Shown: positions 11,231-27,520 of the stretch, one piece after another
Layout of the letters: the number at the start of each line of letters is the position of its first letter
How positions within the stretch are numbered: the stretch's first letter is position 1
DNA from: Methanosaeta sp. PtaB.Bin039
GTDB lineage: Archaea > Halobacteriota > Methanosarcinia > Methanotrichales > Methanotrichaceae
Length of the DNA stretch: 64,000 nt
Reading direction: 5' to 3'
Assembly (NCBI GenBank): GCA_002067795.1
Contig: MVQI01000051.1
Location: forward strand, 1-64,000
The notes under the pieces: generated by a model
What the model was told of the DNA's origin: nothing
What the model saw: the letters and a program-made list of their open reading frames with translations, nothing else
The model's database searches: none
Translations under genes and position numbers: made by a program

Positions 11231-12124
11231 CTATCCGCTCGTCAAGTTCTGGTCGGAGCGGACCTGGGATAGCCGCTCTTTGGCTGCGGCCACCTTGGCC
11301 TTTACGGAGTTCGGGTTCTCCTCAGCCGCCGACTTCTTGGAGCAGCATGCCGGGCCAGAAGCCGCCTCATTTGTCCCGGCTGCAACAGCCAGGCAACCCT
11401 GATCGATCTCTATGACCATGGGCTGGCCCAGATTGTCGTAGATCAGCCTGACCGGACGGCTGTATGGGGAGACGGGGACGAAATCGACACCGGTTCGGAG
11501 GCTCTCGTTGAACTGGAGCTGCCTGGATGTGAAGCCCGATCCCCCGTAGCTCCAGTTCCACTGGTCCACCATGGTGAAGTTCGAGGCGAATACCGGCAGC
11601 ACAGAGTTGTCGCGGTTGATCACGCCCACCTCAAGGGTGATCGACTTGGTCAGGGGTTCAAACCTCGAGCCGGCGATTCCGTAATAGAGGAGAGTCAGGT
11701 TCTGGTCGCTTACGTTAGCCAGATCTCCCAATTCCACGGAGAACAGCTGGCCGCCCTCAGGACTGGCTCTTGGGTCTGCCATCAGCCTTTTTGGGAGGGC
11801 CTCCTTTGGAACAACGAAAACCAGGATCCTGCGGCCGGTCTGTACATCCCTGGACAGACGGGAATTGAGATCGTAGACCCGGTCGTTTCGGTCAACCAGA
11901 TTGTACCTGACACCAGACATGTCGGCGTAGCTCCCGTTCGGGTATCGCAAACCGGTATCCAGGCAGAGCATCACATTCTTAGGATAGTTGATGTCGCCTG
12001 TGGTGAAGGGTGCCTTGAAGGAATCGAAGACCGTGCAGTTCAGCTGGCCGTTGTCGCCGCTGAATGGATAGGCAGAGGCAACCGAAGCCATGACTAAAAG
12101 GAGCATCCAGAGATGGTATCTCAT
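11231..12124 (-). CDS. Exported protein of unknown function near the tubulin-like operon
   Basis: 297 residues with a signal peptide ending about residue 18 (MLLLVMASVASA). The body looks beta-rich with several N-glycosylation sequons (for example NVSDQNLT, NWSY, NESL), then a charged helical tail after an ACC motif (about residue 260). No C-terminal membrane segment is seen. A purine-rich site (GGGGGTAGGGAAG) precedes ATG 12124 and a TATA-like box lies at 12171-12180. It is on the same strand as, and 300 bases downstream of, the tubulin-like gene, so a role in the same envelope locus is possible. Family not recognised. Confidence 0.72.
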   Translation of the reverse strand: MRYHLWMLLLVMASVASAYPFSGDNGQLNCTVFDSFKAPFTTGDINYPKNVMLCLDTGLRYPNGSYADMSGVRYNLVDRNDRVYDLNSRLSRDVQTGRRILVFVVPKEALPKRLMADPRASPEGGQLFSVELGDLANVSDQNLTLLYYGIAGSRFEPLTKSITLEVGVINRDNSVLPVFASNFTMVDQWNWSYGGSGFTSRQLQFNESLRTGVDFVPVSPYSRPVRLIYDNLGQPMVIEIDQGCLAVAAGTNEAASGPACCSKKSAAEENPNSVKAKVAAAKERLSQVRSDQNLTSG

Positions 12125-12424: not shown

Positions 12425-14131
12425 TCAAGAGCCGATCAACCTCTTTATGCGGGCCGCGCCCTCATCAGAGCTGAGGATCTGCTCCAGCTGAGATCTGACT
12501 ATCTCCTCAAGAGCTGCCCTTTCGGTTGCTTGTGGTGTGCACGCCTCGCGAACCGACCTAAAAGACCTCAAGTCGCCGATCCCGAACATGCTCATAGGTC
12601 TGCGGAACGGGTGCTTTTCCCCTCCCTCCAGCCTGGCCAGCGAGAGGCCGAGCTCATCCTTTAGCCCGCCCTGACCATACAGGTACTCCCTCAGATGTTC
12701 CTTTGTGAGGTCGCTGTAGCCCAGGTACTCTATGATGTCGGTCTCGTTCTCCTCGATATATCGTATGGCTTCGCCGATTACCTGATGCAGCCGGCTTTCA
12801 AGCGTCCCCTCCTCACGGCATGCCCCGGCACTGCCCCCATAAGGATTCCTGAGCAGGATCAACAGATCTTCCATCCGATCACCAAGCTTGCGGTAGACCT
12901 TGATCTCATGCCTTGGCAGACCTGTGCGTTTAGCTGTTGCCGAGATTAGCTCCTCGCTTGAGAAGAAGCCCCTGGATAGCACGTAAGCCCTCTCAGCCCT
13001 GGCCGGATCGCATGGAAACAGGCGGCCGTCCTTGGAGAGGGCCCTGTCTACCAGCGACTGTACCTGGCCGTCAGGCCTGCCGGCAGCGTAGCATGGGACC
13101 AGAAGCGGTGGCAACAGCCCTCCGGCGTCCGCGAGGTTTGCAGACTCGCCGTCCGTCTCCCAAAAGACCCGTCGCATGGCCGGGGCGTCGTCCTGGAGGC
13201 TGGATCCAGGGTAGTGACGGAGGTCCAGAAGAGGCTTTAGGCTGCGATAGATTGCCTCGTCCATCCGGGAGTAATTTCGGTCATATCGCTCCGACAAAAC
13301 CTGGTTATCGACAAGAAGCAAGCCGTCGATACCGGTTCCTGCCTCCTTGGTCAGCAGGTCGTACATGGCTATGGTCGCCCCCAGACATCTCTGGCCCTCG
13401 CTGGCATGTCGGGAATCCGATCCCCTTTCGGTGAGCACGCCAAGGGCGAATATCGGAAAGGCCAGCTCCTCGGACCGCACATAGCTGGTGATGGGATTTA
13501 TAAAGCCGGTCCCAGTCCCACCGCCAAGCGAGGCTATGAAAAGTATGCTGTCGCATAGACGCGAGTCGTGGCCATTGCTCTTAGGGGCGATGTCATGCCA
13601 TAACCACTGCATCCCGCTCAAGGCGCTCGGGTCCTCTCCATTTCCCACGTTGTTCTTGTTGCCCTTGCCCGCCCGCCTGGACAATGTTGTGAGAGGGCGG
13701 ATGCCTTCCTTCCAGACGTATCCTGATAGAGGATTCTCCTCGCCCGAAAACTCCTCCCGGGTCATCTTTTTCAGGTCTAAATCGTACTCGAAGATCTCGA
13801 ATATGCCTTTCAAGTACTCAGCCCGCCGGTCGTAACCCATGGCCTTGAGGTCGAATCCATAGACGCTCTGGATATAATCACGTGACGGCGAACCATCCGG
13901 CACCAGATCATGACAGATCAGATACCCTGGATAACATCCTTCTGCAAGGCTGCCGTAGAAATTTTGATTCTGAGCGTCCTGGCTGGCAGAGTCAAGCCAT
14001 ACACCCTTGACATCGCCGAAGGCGAGGTGCTGGCCGAAGCTGTGGACCTTGAGATCCACATCCTGGCTCTCCAGGAACTTGCGCAGGACATTGCATCCCG
14101 CACCGCCGATACCCACAACGCACGGTCTCAT
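12425..14131 (-). CDS. Tubulin/FtsZ-like GTPase, non-canonical
   Basis: A 568-residue cytoplasmic protein with the nucleotide-binding landmarks of the tubulin/FtsZ superfamily: GIGGAGCNVLRKF at residues 7-19 and the signature GGGTGTG at about 203-209, followed by LLLVDNQVL in a position like the FtsZ PND loop. About 185 residues separate the two motifs, against roughly 85 in FtsZ, so a large insertion is present. The usual NxDxAD-type catalytic loop is not evident; the closest segment reads ANLADAGGLL. It fits the tubulin-like (Tubulin_2 / FtsZ-like) families better than cell-division FtsZ. It is last in a four-gene operon, overlapping the preceding gene by ATGA, with membrane and exported partners. 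Filament formation and membrane remodelling are inferences. Confidence 0.8.
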   Translation of the reverse strand: MRPCVVGIGGAGCNVLRKFLESQDVDLKVHSFGQHLAFGDVKGVWLDSASQDAQNQNFYGSLAEGCYPGYLICHDLVPDGSPSRDYIQSVYGFDLKAMGYDRRAEYLKGIFEIFEYDLDLKKMTREEFSGEENPLSGYVWKEGIRPLTTLSRRAGKGNKNNVGNGEDPSALSGMQWLWHDIAPKSNGHDSRLCDSILFIASLGGGTGTGFINPITSYVRSEELAFPIFALGVLTERGSDSRHASEGQRCLGATIAMYDLLTKEAGTGIDGLLLVDNQVLSERYDRNYSRMDEAIYRSLKPLLDLRHYPGSSLQDDAPAMRRVFWETDGESANLADAGGLLPPLLVPCYAAGRPDGQVQSLVDRALSKDGRLFPCDPARAERAYVLSRGFFSSEELISATAKRTGLPRHEIKVYRKLGDRMEDLLILLRNPYGGSAGACREEGTLESRLHQVIGEAIRYIEENETDIIEYLGYSDLTKEHLREYLYGQGGLKDELGLSLARLEGGEKHPFRRPMSMFGIGDLRSFRSVREACTPQATERAALEEIVRSQLEQILSSDEGAARIKRLIGS

Positions 14132-14712
14132 TTAGATCTCCCCAGATAGCTAAGGATTACCGGCAGCATCAACAGCACAAGAGCGCCTGCCAGAGAAACG
14201 TAGCCAAGCCTCCAGGCCAACTCATCGCTGCCGGGGTATATTGTTCCCAGATAAGAGGAAGACAGGATCGATGTCGTCAAGAGCAGTGGAGCCACACGGG
14301 ACATCAGGCTCTTGGTCTGCCTGGATATCACATAGTAGCCATAGATGCGAGGCAGATACAGGTTTATCAGCGTCGCCAAAACCAGCACACATACACCAAG
14401 GAGCAATAGCCCCAGCTCCCAGGAGGCCACCGCAGGAAGACGGAAATAGTTCCACTGGGCGAAGACCTGCGGCGTGAGCAGGTAGAGGAACACGACCGCC
14501 ACGAAGAACAGGTTCCATGAAACCAGCATGATGGTAATGAAGTTGGAGCCCTGGGGGAGACGAAGCGAATCCTTGAGCTGGCTCATATTGAAATGGATAT
14601 CTGCACTCCTGCCAAGCCTGGCCTTCACCCGGACCAGGTAGGCCTGGTGAGCCAGAAGGCAGAGCGCCAAGAATCCCAACAGGGCTGCCAGAAGGATCAG
14701 CTCGTACCTCAT
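14128..14712 (-). CDS. Polytopic membrane protein in tubulin-like operon
   Basis: Not recognised. 194 residues with hydrophobic segments at about 4-27, 58-82, 95-118, 143-156 (weak) and 166-190. A basic loop (VRVKARLGRSADIHF) follows segment one. Overlaps of ATGA link it to the Ig-like gene before it and the tubulin-like GTPase gene after it, so the three are made together. It may be the membrane link between the cytoplasmic GTPase and the exported proteins (inference). Confidence 0.75.
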   Translation of the reverse strand: MRYELILLAALLGFLALCLLAHQAYLVRVKARLGRSADIHFNMSQLKDSLRLPQGSNFITIMLVSWNLFFVAVVFLYLLTPQVFAQWNYFRLPAVASWELGLLLLGVCVLVLATLINLYLPRIYGYYVISRQTKSLMSRVAPLLLTTSILSSSYLGTIYPGSDELAWRLGYVSLAGALVLLMLPVILSYLGRSK

Positions 14713-16100
14713 CGGTAAAACCTCCTCTCCACCACCATGCCTGCCAGCAGGGTCAGCAACAGCAGCAAGCCCAGGTTCAGGAACATGGGAAGCGAGACAA
14801 GATGGTACTTGACCAGCTTGGCACCGATGGGCTGTTTTCGTTCCGCCTCGGTGTAATCCTTCTGATGCTGATCGGGCTCAGTGTACATGAAACGATAGCT
14901 GAAAGTCTGATTGGCGTCCAAGACGTCGAACGGCCGAACGTTAAAGCTGACCACAGCCCGATCCTGACCGAGTACCACCTCCTTTGAGGCCACCCTCTTC
15001 CAGGGGTGGGAGGGCGTGTTGGTCAGAAGGGTCACCGCCACCTTGGCCTCGCCCGACTCCTGATTCTTCATATCGATGCTGAAGTTGTAATTCTGCCACC
15101 AGTACTGGTTCTCGTCCTCAGGCATGACCCGGGGATTGTCCACATAGAGAAGGGCGCTCCTGCGCAAGTTTGGACCTTGCTGCAGCTCAGTCTCCGAGAC
15201 ATTTATGCCATCGCCGAAGCTGTAGTAATAGCTGAAGTTCTTGCCGGCATCTGCCTTGCTGAAGAAGCCGTATTCGTTGGCCCGGAAATCAACTACCTGA
15301 CCTGATCGGACGTCCTGGCTTGCATTGCCGACCTCCCCACCCTCACCACTGAGCACGTGGATGGTCAGATTGATCAGGTCGCCATCCACGTCTGCCGGCT
15401 CCGACCGGTAGACTATCGGATCGTTGTAGCGGGGCGGAGTGGGTGCCTGGATCGTCAGGTTGGATATGTTGGGGGGATTATTGGTCACTGTCAGTGTCAG
15501 GTTCTTGGATGTCCAGGGACGAAGCCCATCAGTCAGACGCATTCGCAGGACCACCGGGCCAACCTCCTTCAGGTGCTTGAAATCTGTCAGGTCGGGGAAC
15601 GTGCGCACAGTGAAATTTTGCTCTGTGCTCTTATCGTAAGTGTAATCGTTTATCTGGATTATCTGGGGAATGGAGTTCACCTGCCTGAAATCGGTCGCTC
15701 CAGGCTCCAGAACATCCAGGTAGAGATAGTAAGCCCGTCTGATCTGAATGGGATTGGGATTCTCCACCCGGGCGTAGATATTGGCCTTTTCGCTTCGGGA
15801 TATAGTCTCGTTTCCTGTAGTGTACAGGGCCATGCGTGGAGACAGATACTCTTCTGTGGTGAACGGCTCGATATACAGCAGCTTTTTCAGCTGTTCGAAC
15901 TTCTGGGGCTTTTGAGTCTTGCCGTCCTCAAGGGCCTTGAATATCCTGTCGAAATCGATGGTTCGGTGGCCACCACCGCCACCGCTGCTGACCGGTGTTG
16001 GAGGAGGGATGGACTGGGTGGGACCCTCAGCCCAGGCCACTGCCGTAAGCACGGCCATCAAAGCGAGCAGCAGTAGCAAAGCAGCCTGGACGCCCCTCAT
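14709..16100 (-). CDS. Type I membrane protein with Ig-like extracellular domains
   Basis: 463 residues from ATG 16100, which overlaps the upstream stop by ATGA. A signal peptide (about 1-24) and a Gly/Pro/Ser linker are followed by a beta-rich extracellular region with many N-glycosylation sequons. Ig-like or PKD-like stretches include RLTDGLRPWTSKNLTLTV and ADVDGDLINLTIHV. One membrane helix lies near the C-terminus (about 436-456) with a short basic tail (VERRFYR). The topology puts the bulk outside the cell. The open frame extends further upstream, but that part belongs to the neighbouring gene's other frame. Confidence 0.78.
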   Translation of the reverse strand: MRGVQAALLLLLALMAVLTAVAWAEGPTQSIPPPTPVSSGGGGGHRTIDFDRIFKALEDGKTQKPQKFEQLKKLLYIEPFTTEEYLSPRMALYTTGNETISRSEKANIYARVENPNPIQIRRAYYLYLDVLEPGATDFRQVNSIPQIIQINDYTYDKSTEQNFTVRTFPDLTDFKHLKEVGPVVLRMRLTDGLRPWTSKNLTLTVTNNPPNISNLTIQAPTPPRYNDPIVYRSEPADVDGDLINLTIHVLSGEGGEVGNASQDVRSGQVVDFRANEYGFFSKADAGKNFSYYYSFGDGINVSETELQQGPNLRRSALLYVDNPRVMPEDENQYWWQNYNFSIDMKNQESGEAKVAVTLLTNTPSHPWKRVASKEVVLGQDRAVVSFNVRPFDVLDANQTFSYRFMYTEPDQHQKDYTEAERKQPIGAKLVKYHLVSLPMFLNLGLLLLLTLLAGMVVERRFYR

Positions 16101-17737
16101 CCTCTCACCACATCGTACTTGACCGCCTGATGCCAGGGCTGGTTGGACCAGACGAGCTCCTTCCATTCGCCACTCTCGGACTCGTAGTATTGGATCAGAC
16201 TTGACCTGGTCCACTTTACGCCGTCGTCGGTATAGATCAGTTCGACAGGCAGACGGGAATACGAAGATCGAAGCTTGACCTTGTAGTTGAAGCGGTCGGT
16301 CTGGCCGACCCGCTCGTAGGTGGTCCCCTGGAAGTTGACATCGAAGTTGGGACCAAAGAACTCTCCCAGGACGTTGTTGTCCCATACGAAGCGATACCTG
16401 GCCAATCCCACCTCCTCAACGGAAGGATCGAATGTGGCATTTCGCCAGATGAGCGTGCTATTCGCTCCGTTGTAGGTGGCAACTCCACGGCTCTCCCAAA
16501 TGCCAGAGCCGGGTGCAGCAGCCTGCAGCTCGACCTCGCAGCGCGGGCGGGCTGTCACGACCTCGACCGAATAGGTGTAAGGGGTATAGGCGCTGCCGTT
16601 GTAAGGCGCAACAGAAGCGTCATTGAGCGCCACTACCACCAGATCCGGCCCGGCGAAGTACTTGCCTGTCATCTCCCGGGTCGTGGCGAAGGGGGCCTCG
16701 GCACCCGGATAGTAGAACCCGAAGTAGTGGTTGGCAGATCCGGCAGCTTCAGGGTCGGCCGATGCTGACACAGCGTCCCAGTGCAGGGACTGCCACCGGC
16801 CTGCATCCTGGTAGGATCTCCGACCGGCCTCAACGAAGCTCTTGCTGCTCACATCGAAGATGCTGAGCCCCACCTCGATAGGCCGGGAGGAGTTGACCTG
16901 TATGCCGAACTGAAACGCCGTGCTTGAAAGCCCCCGCTCCGGGGCGAGGGTGTTGTTGGAAAAGATCACGTCCACCGGCCAGAACGGGCCCTCGCCCATG
17001 GACTGCTTCCTCCCCGTGAACCTGTAAGCAGCGGAGTCGAAATCGAAGGCCAGAGAGATGTTGCTCCATGTGAGGGTCTGCCAGGATCCAGGAGTCGAGT
17101 ACTCTCTTCGTCCCATATCGGTCCAGGGGCCGTTTTTCGATGGTGCTACCTCCAGGGTGATGTTGTCTGATATGGTGGACATCACCTGAACCTGGTATGA
17201 AAACACGTCCTTGGATGTGCCTTTGCGGGGCTCTACCCGGAAATTGCGGAACTCCTCCATCACCTTGATCAGGGATGGACGGCCGCTGTAGTCTTCCATA
17301 TGGGCCGGCTGCTCGAAGGGATTGAGTGAGCTGACATCCACTGAGAACCAGGCCCTATCCCAGGCCGATGTCTGGTTCTTGTCGCTCAGCCACTTGCCGA
17401 ACTCGCCGCGGCGGAACTCGGGGGACTGGAAATTAACCTGAAAGCTGAGCACGCCAGAGGAGCCGGGGTTGAGGTTGATATCCTGGCTCTGGGTCTTTGA
17501 GATCTCGGTATCTTCCAGGTCAGGCCCAAGGCTGAGCTTGACCGAATAAAGCATGGAGCTCTTGGCCCCGGAGAGCGTGACCTGGTAGGTGACGGTCTTT
17601 CCGACATCCAGTGGCTCGCGCTGCATGCCCTCCTGAACTGTCGTGACCGAGAGCTCTACCGCCCCCGCCGGCACAGCTGATACAATAAGCAAAATTGTAG
17701 CCAGTACCATTATCCCAGAGCAACCTAATTGGACCAA
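16097..17737 (-). CDS. Exported repeat protein, first gene of tubulin-like operon
   Basis: 546 residues with a signal peptide (about 1-26). An N-terminal domain (about 30-160) resembles the N-terminal domain of the divergent transglutaminase: QEGMQREPLDVGKTVTYQVTL compares with QDGSDQEPFDIQRPITYRISL, and GRPSLIKV with GHPRLIKP. Four tandem beta-rich repeats follow at about 165-262, 270-370, 378-470 and 480-546. They share the pattern E(V/L)...(G)R..Y...G.W..L.W and AxYRF...F.GP...V; the fourth is cut short. No C-terminal anchor is visible, so it is either secreted or held by partners. TTG 17737 follows GGGGGGT; ATG 17710 is an alternative. Confidence 0.78.
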   Translation of the reverse strand: MVQLGCSGIMVLATILLIVSAVPAGAVELSVTTVQEGMQREPLDVGKTVTYQVTLSGAKSSMLYSVKLSLGPDLEDTEISKTQSQDINLNPGSSGVLSFQVNFQSPEFRRGEFGKWLSDKNQTSAWDRAWFSVDVSSLNPFEQPAHMEDYSGRPSLIKVMEEFRNFRVEPRKGTSKDVFSYQVQVMSTISDNITLEVAPSKNGPWTDMGRREYSTPGSWQTLTWSNISLAFDFDSAAYRFTGRKQSMGEGPFWPVDVIFSNNTLAPERGLSSTAFQFGIQVNSSRPIEVGLSIFDVSSKSFVEAGRRSYQDAGRWQSLHWDAVSASADPEAAGSANHYFGFYYPGAEAPFATTREMTGKYFAGPDLVVVALNDASVAPYNGSAYTPYTYSVEVVTARPRCEVELQAAAPGSGIWESRGVATYNGANSTLIWRNATFDPSVEEVGLARYRFVWDNNVLGEFFGPNFDVNFQGTTYERVGQTDRFNYKVKLRSSYSRLPVELIYTDDGVKWTRSSLIQYYESESGEWKELVWSNQPWHQAVKYDVVRG

Positions 17738-18255
17738 TAAGACCCCCCGTTAGCAATTCTTGAAAGACCCATTGAATATCGTCAATAAACGAGTAACCGG
17801 TCAGATAATAACTCTTTTGGTCGCCACATCCCGGAAAGACCGGACCAGAAGTTGAATGCATCCACCGCTCGGCATTTCGGATGGATCACTGCTACCCTGC
17901 CATCCCTGAACTGGAAATAAACGACTGGCGTCCTGCTGCAGTCCTCGATCAACGACGGAGACAAATGATACGAAGCGATGGTCCAAAGAGTAGGAAGGGT
18001 CCAAGGATCGATAGTCGTGAAAGCAGTATCAATAAATGCAGTAACTAAAAAAAGGCCGCAGGATCAAAAAGAGCAATTCCCAAACAGAATAGATATGAGG
18101 AATTGGAGGATGCTCCACGATTTGTACAGCGAAAGGCATCCAAGGTAAAGAGGCATAAGCCAGTGTATATGCATGGAAATCCCATCCCCTGACACACCCT
18201 CACCCAAACTGCCTTAAATACATCGGCCTCAAATCACCACAGAGATCAAACGACG
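17738..18255. promoter_or_regulatory. Divergent intergenic region of the envelope locus
   Basis: 518 bases between the tubulin-like operon (minus) and the transglutaminase gene (plus). A TATA-like box CTTAAATAC (18213-18221) lies 35 bases before ATG 18256. AT-rich sequence around 17770-17790 could serve the operon. No supported gene; short frames on the minus strand (17782-17964) are unconvincing. Confidence 0.5.
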
Positions 18256-19620
18256 ATGGCAGATATGAATCCCCACCACATCCCCTCCCCGGCCCCTCTG
18301 GCCCTGGCCATCCTGCTGACCCTATCTTTGACAATCTCGGCTGCAGCAGTCTTTAGCCCGGCCGTCACCCTGTATCAGGACGGCTCAGATCAGGAGCCGT
18401 TTGACATACAGCGCCCCATCACATACCGGATATCCCTGCCTTTCGAGTCGCTGGAGAACCAGAGTTACCGGGCCAGGCTGCAGGTATGGGCCGACGGCAG
18501 CTGGGTGGGCTGCCGAACACTGATCGGGCATCTGGACATGGACAGCCCAAAGCTCAACTTCTCGGTAGGCCTGGCCGGATCCGACCTGCGATCTCCTTCA
18601 CTTCAGGCCTGGCTGGCAGGCGGCAACTCCCAGGAGTGGAAGAGCGCCAGGTACGTCCTCACACTCACAGCGGAGAGCGGCCCGTCCTTCGGCCGGGAGG
18701 TGAAGGGCCATCCCAGGCTGATCAAGCCCAGGCCAGCCAGATGGAACGCGACAGACTACTCGGCCATTGACCGTCACGCCCTCTCTGCACCAGCCGACCT
18801 GCAGACAATACCCAGGCTCTCCGACTACCTCACAAGGACTGCCAGAAATGACCGGGAGAAGGCCAGGGCGCTGTTTCGCTGGGTGACCGAGAACGTGAAC
18901 TACGATATGGGCGGCCTGACCTCCGGCCAGCCTGCCGATACCTCGGCAGCCGCAGTGCTCAAGAGCCGCCGCTCGATCTGCGGCGGATACACCGACCTGT
19001 TCTCAGCCCTTGCCCAGTCTGCTGGCCTTGAGGCGGTCAGCATAAGCGGCTACGCCAAGGGCTACGACTACAGGGTCGGTGACGTTTTTCCAGATGAGGC
19101 AAACCACGCCTGGAACGCCGTCCGGCTGGATGGCGCGTGGTACCTGCTGGACACCACTTGGGGCGCGGGGTATGTCGATGCAGGCAGGTATATCCGCCAG
19201 TTCGAGGACTTCTACTTCCTGACCCCGCCCGAACAGTTCGCCTACACCCATTATCCATTGGACAGCTCATGGCAGCTGCTGGCCGATCCGATCAGCAAGC
19301 AGGAGTTCGAGGATCGTGCCTATCAGAAGCCAGCATTCTTTAAAGCTGGCCTGCGTCTGATCAGACCCCGCAACGGAACCATCCTGGCCGATCGCAATGT
19401 GGAGGTGCTGATGGCTGCACCTGCCGACGTATTCCTGACCGCCCAGCTGCTGCGGGGTGAGGTTGACGGACAGCCATCAGTGAGCAGAGATGGCCCGCTC
19501 TACCGCATCAGCGCCACGCTTCCAGGAAGCGGTGAGTACATCCTGAGGATTTTTGCCCGCCGCGGCGATCAGTACGGATATTACGACTGGGCTGCAGACC
19601 TTCTGATCCGGTCTGAATAG
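18256..19620 (+). CDS. Secreted transglutaminase-like protein
   Basis: 454 residues. A signal segment (about 14-31) precedes an N-terminal domain (36-158) shared with the first protein of the divergent operon. A transglutaminase/protease-like core follows (about 185-305), with the expected triad Cys242 in RSICGGYTDLFSALA, His284 in NHAWNAVRLDG and Asp299 in YLLDTTWG. A beta-rich C-terminal domain (about 345-454) has no membrane anchor. Family members cross-link or cleave peptides; the target is unknown. The shared domain suggests it works on or beside the operon's surface proteins (inference). ATG 18265 is an alternative start. Confidence 0.85.
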   Translation: MADMNPHHIPSPAPLALAILLTLSLTISAAAVFSPAVTLYQDGSDQEPFDIQRPITYRISLPFESLENQSYRARLQVWADGSWVGCRTLIGHLDMDSPKLNFSVGLAGSDLRSPSLQAWLAGGNSQEWKSARYVLTLTAESGPSFGREVKGHPRLIKPRPARWNATDYSAIDRHALSAPADLQTIPRLSDYLTRTARNDREKARALFRWVTENVNYDMGGLTSGQPADTSAAAVLKSRRSICGGYTDLFSALAQSAGLEAVSISGYAKGYDYRVGDVFPDEANHAWNAVRLDGAWYLLDTTWGAGYVDAGRYIRQFEDFYFLTPPEQFAYTHYPLDSSWQLLADPISKQEFEDRAYQKPAFFKAGLRLIRPRNGTILADRNVEVLMAAPADVFLTAQLLRGEVDGQPSVSRDGPLYRISATLPGSGEYILRIFARRGDQYGYYDWAADLLIRSE

Positions 19621-19896: not shown

Positions 19897-21042
19897 TCAG
19901 CCCAAGAGCACCTTGCCGGCAGCCTCCACGCCTGCGCCGGGCCGCTCGATCACGCCTTCTCGCGTCAGGATCAGCTCCAGAGTCTGAATCGTGCGCAGTA
20001 TGTCGCCCTCAGAGCAGACGCCCATGGTCCCTATGCGGAAGATCTTGCCCTTCAGCGCCTCCTGGCCGCCGGAGACCACGATGCCCTGCTTCTTCATGCC
20101 TCCGCGCAGCTTGTCGTCGGTTATTCCCTGCGGGATCTTCATCGCGGTGACCGTGTTGGAGTACTGCGAGTAACGGCTCTGGACTGGGAACAGCTCTATG
20201 TTCAGGGCTCTTGCGGCTGCCCGCACCGACTCGGCCAGCCTGGTAGTTCGAGCTCGCCGAACATCGAATCCCTCCTCTTTTGCCATGTGAAGTGCCTCCT
20301 GCAGGGCATAGAACAGGGGAACGGCTGGGGTAAACGGCGTCTGAGTGGGGCTCTTTCTGGCGCTCTTCAGATGGGCCAAAAGGTCGGTGTAAAATCCACC
20401 GCTATTAGGCACAAGGGCGCTCTCGGCTTTCTTGCTCACCGAGACTATGGCCAGGCCAGGGGGGACAGCCAGACACTTTTGGGACCCGGTTACTGCGATA
20501 TCGATCCCCCACTCATCGGTGAGAAACTCGTTTCCGCCAATTGAGGAGATACCGTCAACAATGAATACGGAGTTGCTCTTTCGCGCGATTTTGCCGATCT
20601 CACGTGCCGGATTTACCATGCCTACCGAGGTCTCGTTATGGACCATGGTGACCGCCCTGCACCCTTCGAAAACGGCCGCCTCTATCCTCTCTGGATCGTA
20701 GGGCGTGCCCCAATCGAAGCTGACCGGCACCGCTTTTCCATATCGATTGCCTATCTCGGTGAAGCGATCTCCGAACTTCCCGTTGGATATGGTGAGAATC
20801 GCACCGTCCTTGCCGATAACTCCGCCGACCGCTGCGTCCATGCCGCAGGTACCGGAACCGCTCATGATGACTATCTCGTTTTGGGTCTGGAAAAACTCCT
20901 GAAGGAGAGATCGGCAATCATCGTATATCTTGCCGAACTCGGCACTCCGGTGGCTGATCATTGGCCTGGACATGGCGCGAAGCACTCTGGGCGCCACTTT
21001 GACCGGGCCGGGTATCATAAGAAGCGTATCCTCTGCATCCAA
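19897..21042 (-). CDS. Class V aminotransferase, alanine-glyoxylate / serine-pyruvate type
   Basis: 381 residues, PLP-dependent, fold type I. It begins LLMIPGPVKVAPRVLRAM, typical of the alanine-glyoxylate/serine-pyruvate group. The PLP lysine is in TGSQKCLAVPPG (about residue 195), and HNETSVGMVNP and SIGGNEF line the active site. Methanogen relatives act as broad alanine/aspartate transaminases, so the exact amino-acid pair cannot be read from the sequence. It appears to be a single gene, with RNase HII 34 bases downstream of its start on the same strand. Confidence 0.88.
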   Translation of the reverse strand: MDAEDTLLMIPGPVKVAPRVLRAMSRPMISHRSAEFGKIYDDCRSLLQEFFQTQNEIVIMSGSGTCGMDAAVGGVIGKDGAILTISNGKFGDRFTEIGNRYGKAVPVSFDWGTPYDPERIEAAVFEGCRAVTMVHNETSVGMVNPAREIGKIARKSNSVFIVDGISSIGGNEFLTDEWGIDIAVTGSQKCLAVPPGLAIVSVSKKAESALVPNSGGFYTDLLAHLKSARKSPTQTPFTPAVPLFYALQEALHMAKEEGFDVRRARTTRLAESVRAAARALNIELFPVQSRYSQYSNTVTAMKIPQGITDDKLRGGMKKQGIVVSGGQEALKGKIFRIGTMGVCSEGDILRTIQTLELILTREGVIERPGAGVEAAGKVLLG

Positions 21043-26989: not shown

Positions 26990-27520
26990 TCAGCGGGGTA
27001 CGGTGCCTATTGGCAGCGTGTTCTCCCGCCCTCTGGTGGAGGGAACATATGCCCAGTCAGCCGACCTATCCTCGTCCTTGCCATTGGGGAACCTGGACCA
27101 TGTAAACCCATCGTTCTTGCTGTCTACAAGCAGCAGTGAGTTGTCCACCTCCTGGCTTGAGGCGTCGTATAGGATGGCAGTTGCGTTGATGCCATGCTGC
27201 CAACTGGATTGCCCTACCAAAACAAGATACCCATCGGCCTGCAGCACCGTTCCTGAGGGAATCGGGATCTGACCCTGCCAGGAGAACGCGCCGCCTGACT
27301 CGCCGGGCACGGTTGAGACTATGACTACCTTCCATCCGGACAGGTCCACATCCTGCGGACCCCTGTTGTACAGCTCGACCCATTCCGTGGACCCTGGCGT
27401 CTGGGGCGGGTTGAGCTCAACCTCGTTTATCACAACGCTTGCCACGCACGGGGCTGGCAGGACGGCAATTGAGAGCATTATAGCCGTCATTGTAACGACA
27501 ATTCGATTGACAGGCTTCAA
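26990..27520 (-). CDS. Secreted lamin-tail-domain protein
   Basis: 176 residues with a signal peptide (about 1-27) and a single lamin-tail-type Ig domain (about 28-155): VVINEVELNPPQT, EWVELYNRGPQDVDLSGWKV and YLVLVGQ are typical. Such domains occur on bacterial and archaeal surface proteins and are thought to mediate binding. The start is TTG 27520, with AAGGAG about 10 bases upstream. It may lie outside the cell as a free domain, since no anchor is present. Confidence 0.82.
   Translation of the reverse strand: MKPVNRIVVTMTAIMLSIAVLPAPCVASVVINEVELNPPQTPGSTEWVELYNRGPQDVDLSGWKVVIVSTVPGESGGAFSWQGQIPIPSGTVLQADGYLVLVGQSSWQHGINATAILYDASSQEVDNSLLLVDSKNDGFTWSRFPNGKDEDRSADWAYVPSTRGRENTLPIGTVPR

Follow-up and report, generated by a model that had tools for sequence, protein, structure and literature searches.

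The locus belongs to an archaeal genome of 2.45 Mb that contains mcrA, within the 64,000-nucleotide stretch of DNA analyzed here (the window). In it, a gene for a transglutaminase-like protein (TG) stands between an aminotransferase gene and an operon that encodes the proteins named here SurfA and SurfB, a membrane protein, and a divergent FtsZ/tubulin-like GTPase. TG and SurfA were first annotated as lying head to head across a 518-base gap, and both open reading frames and the gap were located as claimed. The features are as follows, with the shared N-terminal domain abbreviated NTD and transmembrane abbreviated TM.

11231..12124, minus strand: P0006, a probably secreted protein, whose gene also comes after that of the FtsZ-like protein in genus g9 (L066, L067)
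12425..14131, minus strand: P0004, divergent FtsZ/tubulin-like GTPase, GGGTGTG at residue 203, PF00091 at E 2.9e-7, just below the cut-off
14128..14712, minus strand: P0005, membrane protein with about four TM segments
14709..16103, minus strand: SurfB (P0003), likely start at 16103, secreted, with a TM anchor at the C-terminus
16097..17737, minus strand: SurfA (P0001, 546 aa), signal segment, NTD, and four related repeats of Ig-like size
17252..17656, minus strand: NTD copy on SurfA, from profile comparison, kept in 28 of the 50 genomes compared
17738..18255, no strand: divergent intergenic region of 518 bases, G+C 46.9%, with dissimilar upstream halves
18256..19620, plus strand: TG (P0002, 454 aa), transglutaminase-like, with signal segment, SurfA-type NTD, TG core, and KY-type Ig-like domain
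18361..18726, plus strand: NTD copy on TG, approximately residues 36-157, from a SurfA-NTD HMM built without TG and from hhalign
18814..19152, plus strand: TG core, Cys242-His284-Asp299 all intact
19897..21042, minus strand: aminotransferase gene (AGT), the gene immediately preceding SurfA in most of the relatives examined; here TG comes between them

A palindrome or inverted duplication spanning the intergenic region was considered and rejected, as nothing except the shared G.P.LIK codons was found and the upstream halves are unlike.

TG carries a Transglut_core domain (PF01841; E 1.9e-19, residues 188-299, 70.4 bits against a curated cut-off of 23) and an Ig-like_KY domain (E 9e-11, residues 349-452), preceded by a hydrophobic segment at residues 9-27. 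The Cys-His-Asp triad is intact (C242, H284, D299), and the Cys and His motifs also occur in the relatives checked. By sequence, the nearest solved relative is FAP246, a cilium protein (7n6g, E 2e-14), followed by 9crn and 3isr. The arrangement of a Transglut_core with Cys-His-Asp followed by a KY-type Ig-like domain is that of the KY-type transglutaminase-like proteins (PF01841 + PF23265), from which TG differs in being archaeal, apparently secreted, and equipped with a SurfA-type NTD. Judged from these matches, the core, triad, and Ig-like domain are of known kinds. Because the transglutaminase-like superfamily holds peptidases as well as cross-linkers (PMC10318531), cross-linking and cleavage by TG cannot be told apart from its sequence.

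The N-terminal regions of TG and SurfA, which the first-pass annotation had aligned with each other, do so with 25% identity over 152 aa in a BLASTP of the full proteins (E 7e-8). Their local score of 89 compares with a shuffled mean of 28 (z ~12), and 0 of 5000 mature-region shuffles reached 89. Alignment of a profile of 28 SurfA NTDs with the TG NTD gave E 1.4e-11 and a probability of 97%. When the whole genome was searched with a SurfA-NTD HMM built without TG, SurfA and TG alone were matched (TG at E 2.0e-9), which makes the TG N-terminus a match to the SurfA-NTD family as defined in this analysis; across all window ORFs, the same HMM gave TG 36 bits, while no ORF of 20 shuffled copies exceeded 6.5. 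The likeness is confined to the NTD of SurfA (z 12), with the four internal repeats, most of which are related to one another, reaching z of at most 0.6. Sites common to both NTDs are Q..G...EP.D....TY...L, two W, and G.P.LIK. No Pfam or NCBIfam model covers the domain, and its profile had no match among PDB sequences. We consider homology of the two N-terminal domains established by these sequence comparisons.

The TG copy has nonetheless diverged strongly, with a branch of ~3 changes per site in the NTD tree, and it lacks the GPD motif of the SurfA NTDs; it may therefore have lost its binding site. Placement of this long branch within the SurfA tree was attempted and gave no resolved position; it was neither joined to nor rejected from the window's own SurfA (p-AU 0.24) or that of G085 (p-AU 0.30), a genome of another order. 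AlphaFold models of both NTDs, generated from one two-row alignment and of modest confidence (mean pLDDT of 66 and 80), display the element order E-E-E-E-E-H-E-E of a beta-sandwich. Because one alignment is common to both, the models are not by themselves proof of homology, and we take them as agreeing with it. A PDB fold search with either model returned generic beta-sandwiches (factor XIII barrel, arrestin, dextranase) and no specific family. The better model, that of SurfA, matched the factor XIII barrel domain with Z 11.6 and rmsd 2.9 over 112 aligned residues, a likeness taken as one of common fold type only.

We compared the window genome with 49 relatives, giving 50 genomes of one family. 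Of these 50 genomes of the order, 28 encode the NTD, always as one copy on SurfA; the window genome alone adds a second, on TG. Carriage by other enzymes, which the first-pass annotation had proposed looking for, was not found in the 50 genomes of the order or in 392 of the phylum, nor was any other instance of the NTD-TG fusion. The proposal that the domain co-targets TG and SurfA therefore survives in part: it is plausible, with an export segment on both proteins, but the NTD is not a general enzyme-targeting module. Many g8 genomes keep the operon with a SurfA that lacks the NTD. In L076, L079, and L085, a long SurfA (~790-1460 aa) with another N-terminus and no NTD occupies the same operon position.

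The operon itself is conserved across almost the entire family. Homologues of SurfA are found in most Methanotrichaceae genomes and those of the FtsZ-like gene in 45 of the 50. In 20 neighborhoods located by tblastn of the window genes, the order SurfA, SurfB, 4-TM protein, FtsZ-like is the same in the relatives, and the operon usually lies directly behind aminotransferase and RNase HII genes; only in the window genome does TG stand between aminotransferase and SurfA. SurfA has no second hydrophobic segment and no C-terminal TM segment, the latter being present in SurfB, and its earlier label of structural protein is one we infer from its signal peptide and Ig-like repeats. The GTPase P0004 has the tubulin-superfamily signature (GGGTGTG; PF00091 at 31.4 bits versus a cut-off of 33, E 2.9e-7) and matched Tubulin_2 (PF13809) only at E 0.018. 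Outside the family, the operon is clear in one genome, G085 (L102), which has no mcrA match and in whose order 1 of 11 genomes carries SurfA; its presence there may reflect transfer or a binning error.

Homologues of TG occur in most relatives, with cores 40-51% identical and the Cys-His-Asp triad, and begin with a short leader, a lamin-tail domain (LTD), or TPRs in place of the NTD; some have a signal and short linker only. On the TG-core tree, the kind of N-terminus switches five times or more, and the window TG falls on the short-leader side. Since the N-termini differ in this way, the fusion can be read as a single-lineage domain swap in a module-swapping enzyme. Several short-leader TGs share another common locus, adjoining a gene with a metallo-beta-lactamase fold (fold read by eye). 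A scan of genome contigs returned two distant Chitinophagaceae TGs only, and the viral contigs searched held no relatives. Elsewhere in the window, a secreted lamin-tail-domain protein (26990-27520, minus strand) resembles the LTD that forms part of the G010 TG (E 1.4e-10).

Three more genomes, G011, G039, and G021, have TG genes near the operon (L080:5855-12101, L079:11694-13220). G011 has a second copy of the operon, with a codirectional TPR-TG gene 137 bp upstream of it; in G039 and G021, TG is ~4 kb from the FtsZ-like gene, a proximity that may be one event in both. With the window genome counted, 8 kb or less separates the two genes in 4 of 35 TG/FtsZ-like pairs, versus 0.23 expected; without it and with G039 and G021 merged, there are 2 proximities versus 0.23 expected, a modest excess. 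Most TG genes lie away from it.

The single explanation that we judge best begins with the gene of a secreted thiol enzyme of transglutaminase fold, which in this lineage would have ended up in the conserved envelope operon, with the aminotransferase gene on one side and SurfA on the other. A duplicate of the beta-sandwich NTD of SurfA would have replaced the enzyme's usual N-terminus. This domain may dock TG on the extracellular partner of SurfA's own NTD, either SurfB or SurfA itself, and the docked enzyme may act, as peptidase or cross-linker, on proteins of an envelope system whose anchors are SurfB and the 4-TM protein and whose counterpart inside the cell is the FtsZ-like GTPase. Taken whole, this docking account has about an even chance of being right. 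In its favor are the NTD-specific homology, the export segments on both proteins, the intact triad, the family-wide synteny, the swapping of N-termini, and the proximity of TG genes to the operon; against it are the restriction of the fusion to one genome, the long TG-NTD branch without GPD, the distance of most TGs from the operon, and the g8 SurfA proteins without the NTD. The domain was most probably taken from SurfA into TG, since no protein but these two carries it. That direction is one we infer, the TG NTD having no firm place in the tree, as we do the docking partner, substrate, chemistry, and co-expression.

Its main rival assigns the domain no function beyond export. A TG gene that landed beside SurfA may have taken the 5' part of SurfA, encoding signal peptide and NTD, as an export leader, after which the NTD drifted. 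The length of the NTD branch, the other TGs with signal and short linker only, and upstream regions that no longer share anything are consistent with this course, and a domain so diverged could be a mere export leader. However, the TG copy retains the core positions of the sandwich (EP.D, TY, two W, G.P.LIK), its frame is open across the whole domain, and TGs adjoin the operon elsewhere with other N-termini. We therefore hold this course possible, though clearly less probable than docking. It is unlikely that the fused gene was imported ready-made from an unsampled relative and inserted beside SurfA, so that co-location came after fusion. The NTD tree, undecided between the window's own SurfA and G085, would allow it, but the fusion is absent from the other genomes of the order and the 392 of the phylum, and the G+C of TG (0.61) is close to that of SurfA (0.58), with third-position G+C also similar. 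Chance or convergence of two unrelated Ig-like domains would fit the generic PDB sandwiches matched by both models and the frequency of Ig-like sandwiches on archaeal surfaces, yet it is strongly disfavored, to the point of being hardly credible, by the genome-wide and profile-profile E values and by a likeness specific to the NTD over the SurfA repeats.

If docking is correct, an enzyme with an N-terminal domain taken over from a neighboring envelope protein points to its own likely workplace, and the idea is checkable by binding with recombinant domains. The operon also merits attention for bringing secreted Ig-like proteins together with a tubulin-like GTPase in sheathed acetoclastic methanogens, a combination of which no description was found in the literature searched. 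To our knowledge, the plug and septum proteins of these organisms are not known. A wider reading, to which we give only a small chance, is that the operon forms a Methanotrichaceae envelope-septum machine coupling an inner tubulin-like cytoskeleton to outer Ig-like proteins (e.g., of sheath plugs or septa), with TGs as recurrent cross-linking or trimming accessories, here docked by a SurfA domain. The known sheath proteins and adhesins of Methanotrichales (PMC11576556), from the order to which the window genome belongs by gene content, are likewise secreted with Ig-like domains, and the archaeal sheath survey could not assign further sheath or plug proteins (PMC11576556). A link of the SurfA operon to such proteins is speculative, a candidate and no more.

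Among described systems, the operon resembles the FtsZl1 systems (Makarova and Koonin 2010, PMC2875224), which likewise combine a divergent FtsZ/tubulin-like GTPase with membrane and secreted lineage-specific proteins, and it is a candidate member. Unlike them, it showed no gene for a kinase, P-loop GTPase, or OmpA, and the vWA protein appears not to be a constant partner, although one lies near the operon in G039. As in the FtsZl1 systems, large secreted proteins are encoded beside the operon at L079:8672-11143 (G039), with vWA domains, and at L102:457-4272 (G085), where the protein appears vWA-like by eye.
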